Shown piece after piece: positions 6,977 through 36,461 of a stretch of DNA of 64,000 bases. Position 1 is the first letter of the stretch; each line of letters opens with the position of its first letter. Source of the DNA: Gammaproteobacteria bacterium (lineage in GTDB: Bacteria > Pseudomonadota > Gammaproteobacteria > JAJPIJ01); NCBI GenBank assembly GCA_022071965.1, contig JAJVIQ010000005.1:62001-126000 (forward strand), read 5' to 3'. The notes under the pieces are model-generated. The model was not told where the DNA came from and made no database searches. It was given only the letters and a program-made list of their open reading frames with translations. Position numbers and translations under genes: made by a program.

Positions 6977-9303
<2,327 letters not shown>

Positions 9304-9406
9304 GACGGGGATTCGTGAACGACGGTCGGAGAACCCCGGGGCGGCCGATCACGAACTGCGATATCCGAGTCACCGATCGCGGGTCACCAGAGACGGACAA
9401 ACAGCA

Positions 9407-9826
9407 ATGGCGAACAAGATGCTTGTCGATGTGGTGAGTGCCGAGGAGTCGATCTTCTCCGGAGAAGCGACGTTCGTCGTGCTGCCGGGCGAAGCCGGCG
9501 AGCTGGGCATACTGCCGCGGCACACCCCGCTCATCACCCGCATCCGGCCGGGCGCCGTGGAGATTACGCGTGCCGACAACGACGAGAAGGAACTCGTGTT
9601 CGTCGCCGGCGGCATTCTGGAAGTGCAGCCGAACCACGTCACCGTACTGGCCGATACCGCGATACGCGGGCGGGATCTCGACGAGGCCAAGGCCCAGCAG
9701 GCCATCAAGGCGGCCGAGGATGCCAAGCGCAATGCCAAGGACCAGGTGGAAGTCGCCTCGGTCGAGGCGGAACTGGCCACGCTCGCGGCCCAGCTCGCGG
9801 CCATACGGCGTCTGCGCCGCCGTTAG
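9407..9826 (+). CDS. atpC: F1Fo ATP synthase subunit epsilon
   Basis: A 139-residue subunit that couples rotation and inhibits ATP hydrolysis. The beta-sandwich N domain has [19 protein letters not shown], and a two-helix C domain rich in Ala and Lys follows. It ends the atp operon in the usual position, 103 bases after atpD. Confidence 0.96.
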
Positions 9827-9898
9827 CAGATCCGTCACGCGGCCGGGCATCTCGGGCGCGTCGCAATTCACATCCCGGTTCTCGCGCCGCCCTTCGGC

Positions 9899-33721: not shown

Positions 33722-34357
33722 TCAGCGGAACAGGGTTGCATAGCGACGGGCGGCGTCCTCCGGGTCCCCGCCGCCGAACAGGCCGTCGATGACCGCCAGC
33801 AGACCGGCGCCCGCCTCGAGCAGGGCGCCGCCATTCTCGGGCGTGATGCCGCCTATCGCAACGATCGGGACTTTCAGCACGTCAGCGGCCCGGCGCAGGA
33901 GTCCGATGCTGGCGCGCACGGCGCCGGGCTTCGTCCGCGAAGGGTAGAAGCCGCCGAAGGCGACGTAGCTCGCGCCGTCCCGCTCCGCCTCGATGGCGCG
34001 CTGCAATTCGTCGTAGCAGGACACCCCGACTGTCGCGCGATCACCCAGCAACACGCGGGCGGCCGCAATGCCCATGTCGTCGCGTCCCAGGTGCACGCCG
34101 GCCGCATCGATGTCGCGAGCCAGGGCGGCGTCATCGTTGACGATCAACGGCACGCCGTGCTCGCCGCACATCTGCTTCAGCGCCAGGGCCTGCGCGCGCT
34201 GCGCGTTGCGCTTGGCGCGGTACTGCACCAGGACCGCGCCGCCGCGTATTGCGGCCTCCACCGCCTGCAGCAGTATTCGGGTGTCGCTGCAATGCGCCGG
34301 CGTGATCGCATACAGGCCGCGAGCCGGCAGTCGTACCGCTCCGTTGCGGGCCGTCAT
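33722..34357 (-). CDS. thiE: Thiamine-phosphate synthase
   Basis: ThiE couples HMP-PP and thiazole phosphate to thiamine phosphate. It has 211 residues in a TIM-barrel fold. Visible motifs are [19 protein letters not shown] (LVQYRxK), [17 protein letters not shown] and [13 protein letters not shown]. The frame extends upstream to 34753 within thiD, but the ATG at 34357 overlaps the thiD stop (ATGA). The thiD-thiE pair supplies the pyrimidine branch and the coupling step. Confidence 0.95.
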
Positions 34358-35151
34358 GAGATCGCGATGCGAAGCCGGCCGGGATGGCGCTGGCCTTGCC
34401 CGAGCATCAGGCTGTCGCGCAGCGACCGCCACGTGTATTCCTGCGCCAGCGCCGCCGCGCTGTCGATGTCCGCGCCGCGGGCGAGCCAGGTGGCCAGCGC
34501 CGCGGCCAGGGTGCATCCGGATCCGTGATAGACGTGCGGCAGCCTGGGCCACCGCCAGCGCCTGCAGGAGGTCGGACTGTAGAGCGCGTTGATCACCGCG
34601 TCGGTCGCCGCATGCGTTCCGGTCAGCAGCACGAACCGTGCGCCGCGCCGGAGCAGGCCGCGCGCCGCCTCCTCGGGGTCTCGCGCCGCCCCGAGCGCGC
34701 ATGCCTCGTGAACATTGGGCGTGATGATTGTCGTCAGTGGCAGCAGGCCACACAGGGTGTCGATCATATCAGCGCCGAGGATGCGCTGGCCGGCGCCCGC
34801 TGCCATGACCGGGTCGAGCACGATCGGCAGGCTCCCGGCCTTCTCGAGCAGACCGGCGAGCGCCTCGCCCACGCTCCGGTCGGGGATCAGGCCCACCTTG
34901 ATCGCCTTCGGGGCCATGTCCTCCGCCAACAGCGCGGCTTGCCGCGTGAGAGCGCTGGCGTCGACGCCGAGGCACTCGGTGAACCTGCTGGTGTTCTGCG
35001 CGGTCAACGCCGTAACAAGGGTCGCCGGGAAGCCGCCGTTGGCGTGTATGGCCTCGATGTCGGCCTGGATCCCGGCGCCCCCGCACGGATCGTGGCCTCC
35101 CGCGGCGAGCACGATGGGCGGATTAAGGGTGAGTTCAGCCACGAGGCGCAT
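34354..35151 (-). CDS. thiD: Hydroxymethylpyrimidine/phosphomethylpyrimidine kinase
   Basis: ThiD phosphorylates HMP twice to HMP-PP. Its 265 residues are of the ribokinase-like fold. Key segments are AGGHDPCGGAGIQADIEAI, KVGLIPD, VLDPVMAAGAGQ and the anion hole HGSGCTLAAALA near the C terminus. No TPP riboswitch was recognised in the 167 bases upstream. Confidence 0.96.
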   Translation of the reverse strand: MRLVAELTLNPPIVLAAGGHDPCGGAGIQADIEAIHANGGFPATLVTALTAQNTSRFTECLGVDASALTRQAALLAEDMAPKAIKVGLIPDRSVGEALAGLLEKAGSLPIVLDPVMAAGAGQRILGADMIDTLCGLLPLTTIITPNVHEACALGAARDPEEAARGLLRRGARFVLLTGTHAATDAVINALYSPTSCRRWRWPRLPHVYHGSGCTLAAALATWLARGADIDSAAALAQEYTWRSLRDSLMLGQGQRHPGRLRIAIS

Positions 35152-35318
35152 CCTTCATGCCGTGCGTCGCGATGCGCGCCGCAGTCTCGGGCATCTTATT
35201 TCGAAGACGGGCCGCATGGGAGTGTAACCTTCCCGATCGGCCGGGCAACCAACGGTCGGATCCTGGCCAATCGGCAAGACCCCGCATCCCCCGAATCCCA
35301 ACCATGGAGAGAACACCG

Positions 35319-35576
35319 ATGAGCGTATCGTCGAAGAAGCTGACCGGCGCCAGCCTGGCGACCACTGCGGCCATGCTGTTTGCCTTCACCCCGGCAGCCA
35401 CCGTGCATGCCGAGGAGGGCGCGGTTTCCTGCCTCGGCATCAATGCCTGCAAGGGGCAGGGCTCGTGCAAGACCGCGGAGAACGCCTGTGCCGGACAAAA
35501 CGCCTGCAAGGGCCATGGCGTCAGCCTGGTCAGTGCGGCGGAGTGCTCCGAGAAGGGCGGCACTATCGCGAAGTAG
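35319..35576 (+). CDS. Bufferin-like (BufA2-type) Cys-rich exported peptide precursor
   Basis: An 85-residue precursor with a signal peptide (about 1-31, ending TVHA). The Cys-rich part has six cysteines in repeats such as CLGINACKGQGSCKTAENAC and CAGQNACKGHG. This pattern matches the BufA2-type bufferins, periplasmic copper-binding RiPP-like peptides in which cysteines are modified by a DUF692 (MNIO) enzyme with a DUF2063 partner. No such enzyme lies beside it, so it is an orphan or uses partners elsewhere. The ATG at 35319 follows GGAGAGAAC; the longer frame from 35157 lacks a signal peptide. Confidence 0.75.
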   Translation: MSVSSKKLTGASLATTAAMLFAFTPAATVHAEEGAVSCLGINACKGQGSCKTAENACAGQNACKGHGVSLVSAAECSEKGGTIAK

Positions 35577-35776
35577 ACCTCGCGGAAGGCGTCGCCGGCG
35601 CCCGGACGGCGCCGGTGTGCCCGGAGACCACGCCCCGCCCACCGGCAGGTACCGGCGAGCGGGGCGTCCGGTCTTCGGACGCCTGCGCCGCGGTGCTTCG
35701 GCGGATCGGGAACAGTGGCTCCCCGCTGTCAGGGAGTCGCCGGCACGGGGAACCGCGTGAGACCGCATGACGGCGC

Positions 35777-36202
35777 TCAGCCGGGCTGGAGCTCGACCAG
35801 AAGCGTGACCGCGACGAGTACGAGCACCGGGAATTCGTTCAGCCAGCGGTAGAACACGTGGCCGTGCCTGTTCCGATCGCTCCCGAAGTCGGCGAGGATC
35901 TTGCCGAGATATAGGTGATACCCCACCAGTACGGCGACCAGCGCGAGCTTCCAGTGCATCCACGACGCGCCGGCGTATCGCGCCCAGCCGTTGCCGAGGA
36001 GCAACCACAGGCCAAGGAGTATCGTCAGCACGCCCCCGGGGGTCGTTATGCCGTAGTAGAGCTTGCGCTCCATCACCTTGAAGCGCTCGATGCTGACGGT
36101 GTCGCTGCTCAGCGCGTGATACACGAACAGCCGCGGCAGGTAGAACAGTCCCGCGAACCAGGTCACCATGAAGATGATGTGAAAGGCGCGCACCCAGAGC
36201 AT
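35777..36202 (-). CDS. hemJ: Protoporphyrinogen IX oxidase HemJ
   Basis: A 141-residue membrane protein of the HemJ/UPF0093 family that oxidises protoporphyrinogen IX in haem synthesis, probably with a bound b-haem. The N terminus MLWVRAFHIIFMVTWFAGLFYLPRLFVYH holds the conserved His and Arg. Three further helices and a C-terminal RWLNEFPVLVLVAVTLLV follow. The frame is open to 36412, but the ATG at 36202 gives the family start. Confidence 0.93.
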   Translation of the reverse strand: MLWVRAFHIIFMVTWFAGLFYLPRLFVYHALSSDTVSIERFKVMERKLYYGITTPGGVLTILLGLWLLLGNGWARYAGASWMHWKLALVAVLVGYHLYLGKILADFGSDRNRHGHVFYRWLNEFPVLVLVAVTLLVELQPG

Positions 36203-36218
36203 GGTGACCGTGTCCCGC

Positions 36219-36461
36219 TCAGGAGCCGATGCATGCGGCGATCGGTGCGCGCGCGTGGTCCACCTCGATGCCCGCGACGATGCTGCCGTGCGGTGCGTTG
36301 AGAGGGCTCGTCGGTATCGCCGCCACGCCGCCAAAGGCGCCGGCGGCCTGGCGGATGAGGTCGAGGGCGGCCGGAAAGTTGAACTGCAGGCCGCGCGCGA
36401 CGCGCCGCACATTGGTTGGCGGACCGGGTGGCCGCACAGCGGCAGTCTTGGCCTTGTTCAT
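36219..36461 (-). CDS. Small protein of unknown function
   Basis: An 80-codon frame with third-position G/C around 85 percent, like neighbouring genes. It fits exactly between the DUF4126 gene (18-base gap) and hemJ (16-base gap). I recognise no domain; the second half contains AAIPTSPLNAPHGSIVAGIE. No strong Shine-Dalgarno is seen, so expression is uncertain. It could be a short conserved accessory protein or a fortuitous frame. Confidence 0.45.
   Translation of the reverse strand: MNKAKTAAVRPPGPPTNVRRVARGLQFNFPAALDLIRQAAGAFGGVAAIPTSPLNAPHGSIVAGIEVDHARAPIAACIGS

Follow-up and report, generated by a model that had tools for sequence, protein, structure and literature searches.

A stand-alone BufA2 bufferin precursor and its candidate MNIO-DUF2063 enzyme pair at separate loci of a gammaproteobacterial genome

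The window analysed here, a stretch of 64,000 nucleotides on contig C9 of a Gammaproteobacteria genome (G000), contains a small cysteine-rich gene at 35319..35576 on the plus strand, encoding 85 amino acids followed by a stop codon. Its translation matched the NCBIfam profile NF050166 (Cu_RiPP_BufA2) with 82.5 bits (E-value 1.8e-23; cut-off 60), bearing out the original prediction of a BufA2-type bufferin precursor. The sole Pfam match was DUF7640, at 23.8 bits and below the cut-off of 28.1, and the same scan returned no match to PF10048 (DUF2282), the family of Buf1 precursors. The product has six cysteines with the spacing C-x5-C-x5-C-x6-C-x5-C-x12-C and contains the motif NACKG twice. The six cysteine columns are conserved at 99-100% across 139 aligned BufA2-class sequences, and the window protein has a cysteine in every one of them.

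By inspection, residues 1 to about 31 (35319..35411, plus strand) form a Sec-type signal peptide, with cleavage after VHA. This segment keeps the N-terminal pattern K..TG..LA..AA.LF of BufA2, which, judged from sequence, exceeds an ordinary Sec signal in specificity. In the 139-row alignment, and with residues numbered from a 90-aa reading of bufA2, the conserved positions are A19 (96%), A22 (97%), A23 (93%), F26 (82%) and G15 (75%); A19, A22, A23 and F26 are also kept in the window protein. We prefer the start at 35319 because the genus-mate G001 has ACG in place of the in-frame ATG found at 35304. The GGAGAGA that precedes the preferred start resembles, by inspection, a ribosome-binding site.

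Both neighbouring genes are outside any bufferin system. A thiD-like kinase gene (34354..35151, minus strand; PF08543, 210.8 bits) is divergent from bufA2, and a hemJ-like gene of the UPF0093 family (35777..36202, minus strand) is convergent with it, the PF03653 score of the latter (144.5 bits) being obtained on the longer ORF 35777-36412. The two assignments are above the Pfam cut-offs, while the corresponding NCBIfam equivalogs score just below theirs. The intergenic region between thiD and bufA2 (35152..35318) is the presumed site of the bufA2 promoter; a promoter scan found no sigma-70 consensus in it. Strong GC-rich hairpins are predicted on the plus strand 3' of the bufA2 stop (35577..35690; folding energy -78.7 kcal/mol, z -4.15), but they lack a T-run, and a search for an intrinsic terminator after bufA2 gave 0 terminator-like sites.

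The same gene order, thiE-thiD/bufA2/hemJ, is found in G001, whose bufA2 is 81% identical to that of the window. Comparison of the two genus members gave a dN/dS of approximately 0.5 for bufA2, a value based on only 85 codons, whereas hemL, hemJ, argC and the MNIO gene show stronger constraint, at 0.11-0.17. This weaker constraint on bufA2, like its lack of linkage to modification enzymes, fits the possibility that BufA2 remains unmodified, acting as a thiol-based periplasmic sink for metals or oxidants, or that its function has been lost; unmodified action and loss of function are both among the options named in PMC12452194. We consider this explanation unlikely, given that all six cysteines are kept in both genus members, as are the two NACKG motifs and the BufA2 pattern at the N-terminus.

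The source genome, in 39 contigs and 98.7% complete, carries two MNIO genes (DUF692, PF05114) and two DUF2063 genes (PF09836), none of them on C9. The original prediction was, therefore, right that bufB and bufC are missing beside bufA2, where the neighbours are thiD and hemJ and all MNIO and DUF2063 matches fall on other contigs. Its description of the precursor as being without its modification enzymes does not extend to the whole genome: a genome-wide absence of MNIO enzymes, which, together with a lack of metal binding, it had named as evidence against its proposal, was looked for, and two MNIO-DUF2063 pairs were found instead.

Each MNIO gene has a DUF2063 gene directly after it, one pair being located on contig C3 and the other on contig C8. 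The C3 pair belongs to a complete Buf1 operon, consisting of a DUF2282 precursor (81.1 bits against PF10048), MNIO, DUF2063 and DoxX. The C8 pair (G000:C8:119465-120560, minus strand) is preceded by a DUF1631 gene and an HDOD gene, and followed by SPFH and NfeD genes. No precursor was found with the BufA1 and BufA2 HMMs in the 12 kb surrounding the C8 MNIO. Across the genome, only the window gene scored above the cut-off of the BufA2 model, the other match being the Buf1 precursor, below the cut-off. The DNA pattern encoding CKGxxxCK occurs once in the genome, within bufA2, and its reversed control 0 times. The canonical bufA-bufB-bufC order is thus not present, the precursor lying on C9 and the enzyme pair on C8. 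That this separation is an artefact of assembly or binning, with the enzymes truly adjacent to bufA2, is hardly credible. The source genome is indeed fragmented and the genus-mate corresponds to a MAG record, but both loci lie inside large contigs (175,022 bases in the case of C8), the genus-mate has the same two separate places, and contamination is 0.53%.

Genome contigs were scanned using four C8-type MNIOs as queries, which yielded 471 confirmed relatives; the 80 best-matching ones were retained. In 72 of these best 80 of 471 loci, a BufA2-class precursor is encoded no more than 700 bp upstream, irrespective of strand, and 69 of the 72 precursors contain N.CKG. The other three (L118, L124 and L158, from Legionellaceae) have CKS repeats instead. 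Eight of the best 80 have no precursor: two (L096 and L111) are again the orphan pairs of the order to which the window's genome belongs, four have at most 212 bp of upstream sequence, and the remaining two are L119 and L122. In a FastTree phylogeny of 173 MNIO rows, from which rows shorter than 220 residues were excluded and in which C8 relatives are enriched and many inner supports are low, the C8 enzyme clustered among BufA2-linked MNIOs and the C3 enzyme among BufA1-linked ones. The BufA1 and BufA2 HMMs drifted together, and precursor type was assigned by the higher score plus the presence of N.CKG.

The residue following the invariant aspartate, hereafter the specificity column, was matched to the published BufB2-Asp251 site by motif rather than by alignment with FonB or BufB2. 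It is Asp in 91 out of 97 BufA2-linked MNIOs, with six lacking it, and in 1 out of 23 MNIOs labelled as BufA1-linked; the latter exception arises because an N.CKG precursor (L210/L230) was mislabelled as BufA1. The C8 enzyme has Asp in this column (IERDDHIP), whereas the C3 enzyme has Thr (IEWDTALP), and Asp was also present in all six further orphan MNIO pairs that were inspected. Because the residue follows the tree, this column does not provide evidence independent of the phylogeny. At the near-invariant columns of BufA2-linked MNIOs, the C8 enzyme keeps 69 out of 70 residues and the C3 enzyme 57 out of 70. MNIOs acting on Cys-Lys motifs have been reported to carry Asp at the specificity site, and FonBC, a Lys-Cys enzyme, left NACKG unprocessed (PMC13097082). 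In the same work, the F250D substitution by itself left FonB able to form 5TO, and the specificity residue is therefore no simple switch. On these sequence grounds, the C8 pair is assigned to the Cys-Lys kind, Buf2. Since C8-type loci are linked to BufA2 and CKGxxxCK occurs once in the genome, the genome contains a single orphan precursor and a single orphan enzyme pair whose specificities match.

The C3 pair offers a second candidate, in which a promiscuous MNIO of the Buf1 operon would modify BufA2 in trans, leaving C8 to serve another substrate. Its operon is complete, tandem precursors sharing one MNIO have been reported (PMC12452194), and in another genome of the order, G002, a second bufA2 lies before a Buf1-type operon whose MNIO has Ser in the specificity column, suggesting that a Buf1-type enzyme may handle BufA2 there. 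We nevertheless regard this alternative as very unlikely for the window's precursor: it is C8, not C3, that falls among the BufA2-linked MNIOs in the tree, C3 has Thr in the specificity column, and neither the family search nor the CKGxxxCK pattern retrieved another Cys-Lys precursor in the genome for C8.

The reading we favour, with a probability of roughly 75%, is that the C8 enzymes, which form the genome's sole Cys-Lys-type MNIO-DUF2063 pair, would modify BufA2 in trans. The original prediction had left modification in trans and action of the unmodified peptide as alternatives; the existence of an orphan Cys-Lys pair favours the former and disfavours the latter. BufA2 would be produced from its own single-gene unit and, before export, the C8 MNIO and DUF2063 proteins would bind the precursor, probably via its conserved signal peptide. 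The MNIO would then oxidise cysteines within the Cys-Lys motifs, the Asp beside the catalytic base reading the lysine, and the peptide would exit by the Sec route, be cleaved and chelate copper in the periplasm. Modification, signal-peptide recognition and copper binding are predictions for this BufA2. Copper chelation has been reported for Caulobacter Buf1 (PMC12452194), and by extrapolation from Buf1 the copper binding of a Buf2 peptide may depend on modification. The bufferin system looks split between loci rather than broken. Should modification in trans be borne out, the number of precursors in a genome could differ from its number of operons, and the matching of enzymes to substrates would be predictable from the Asp/Lys rule and not from gene order.

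An unlinked bufA2 together with a precursor-less MNIO-DUF2063 pair of the C8 kind was present in each of the four examined members of the order, with Asp in the specificity column in 4/4. The retention of this pair alongside bufA2 in all four argues against an unmodified BufA2. The locations differ by genus. In the window's genus (n=2 genomes), thiD and hemJ flank bufA2. In the sister genus (n=2), bufA2 lies between a DUF1631 gene and a phasin-like gene, the enzyme pair is beside dapB, and the thiD-hemJ junction lacks bufA2 in both examined genomes. The second bufA2 of G002 (L043 4459-5896, minus strand) directly precedes a BufA1-MNIO-DUF2063-DoxX operon. Outside the order, the pair of G115 (L119) adjoins a cystathionine-synthase-like gene and shows no precursor in the 740 bp covered; the single BufA2 of this genome is encoded elsewhere, adjoining DoxX and carbonic anhydrase genes. 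In G151, also outside the order, a pilin-like gene precedes the only BufA2 gene, and a different contig carries the pair, without a precursor in 1.4 kb, next to a gene for an enoyl-CoA hydratase. An orphan pair (L122) is present in G114, a MAG in which no BufA2 was found.

The two genera of the order share a frame of genes, MgtE, BrkB/YihY, DUF1631, a variable slot, the phasin-like gene and MscS (mechanosensitive channel), the common members being 32-82% identical between genera; the phasin family match falls just short of the cut-off in one of the genera and is missing from the other. In the window's genus, the enzyme pair occupies the slot flanked by DUF1631 and the phasin-like gene; in the sister genus, bufA2 does. 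This could reflect a reciprocal relocation, in which an ancestral bufA2-MNIO-DUF2063 set stood in the frame and each genus moved a different half, a scenario that we put forward tentatively and regard as doubtful. If true, bufferin enzymes would genuinely act in trans, the match between Cys-Lys motif and Asp would pair them with dispersed precursors, and they would be expressed with the SPFH-NfeD membrane genes and not with the precursor. A reciprocal split by vertical descent was rejected as the main reading: a tree of MNIO plus DUF2063 built from 36 chosen rows rejects the four pairs of the order as one clade (AU p 0.0097, lnL 40 lower), while this clade is not rejected with MNIO alone (AU p 0.177). 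It is equally possible that one pair was replaced through transfer, or that break-up happened twice, separately.

To place the locus in a wider frame, BufA2 was counted at an E-value of at most 1e-15 in a class sample of 370 genomes, for which a completeness of at least 90% was asked. It was detected in 69 out of 370 genomes, with 97 matches, 74 of them within 2 kb of an MNIO gene and 23 not; the MNIO inventory behind these figures was searched again individually in 12 genomes and judged complete from match counts in the remainder. Contig ends account for six of the 23 unlinked BufA2 genes (G288, two; G160, G031, G130 and G374, one each), so that 17 remain. A linked BufA2 is lacking altogether in seven genomes: G000, G001, G003 and G151 combine a mid-contig BufA2 with an orphan Cys-Lys pair, the unlinked copies of G160 and G288 are contig-end cases, and the seventh is G130. 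Another 13 genomes, including G002, have linked and unlinked copies together.

In G130, a MAG of 470 contigs, two BufA2 genes were detected (L226 5190-5483 and L227 166-462, both on the minus strand), one of them mid-contig and one at a contig end, and no MNIO was found by search. This genome speaks against a universal rule, and an enzyme-less or unmodified BufA2 may, in general, exist. It thus adds to what speaks for an unmodified peptide in the window's genome; against this stands the tally of 864 fully assembled genomes with Buf2 in PMC12452194 (Table 3), of which 0 lacked an MNIO and one lacked the partner gene.

The window gene shares with Buf2/BufA2 (NF050166; BUF_6/12Cys of PMC12452194; the Cys-Lys captophorins of PMC13097082) the family model, a signal-peptide-like N-terminus, six cysteines, Cys-Lys motifs and size. 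It differs in having no adjacent MNIO, DUF2063 or DoxX gene, its candidate enzymes being on another contig. Stand-alone BufA2 is already known: sizeable proportions of Buf2 precursors are, like the one described here, unlinked to MNIO genes, and the authors propose that they are modified from another locus, or not at all (PMC12452194). What distinguishes the present case from those precursors is the candidate mate, a precursor-less Cys-Lys MNIO-DUF2063 pair in the same genome that recurs in others. We found no mention of such a matched orphan pair in the accessible parts of PMC12452194 and PMC13097082, or in a literature search covering the main texts of largely open-access papers. Since precursor and enzyme pair are each present as a single Cys-Lys orphan, this genome provides a natural case for the question about stand-alone precursors raised by PMC12452194.

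The Buf1 operon on C3 follows the same logic of export and of an MNIO-DUF2063 pair, but its DUF2282-type precursors have four conserved cysteines and other motifs, its enzymes are linked, and its MNIO belongs to another clade, with Thr. The oxazolin/fontiphorin (EGKCG) captophorins, for which 5-thiooxazoles and copper binding have been reported, likewise rely on an MNIO and a DUF2063 partner; they differ in their Lys-Cys motif, in the Phe at the MNIO specificity column and in the inactivity of FonBC on NACKG (PMC13097082).

Some loci showed arrangements or precursor types of their own. The MNIO genes of L101, L112, L128, L133, L135, L146 and L161 have bufA2 upstream of them in the opposite orientation, unlike the usual bufABC order; this divergent organisation is an intermediate arrangement. 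The Legionellaceae loci L118, L124 and L158 have long, cysteine-rich CKS-repeat ORFs without N.CKG before an MNIO with ERDDH (~9300-9880), possibly an extended type of Cys-Lys precursor. A subtype of BufA2 matches was found in open frames of ~240-250 aa in L050, L051, L239 and L242, that of L051 being 1.5 kb from an MNIO gene. Finally, in G303 (L228 6263-7071, plus strand), the MNIO beside BufA2 is split over two frames, as if frameshifted.
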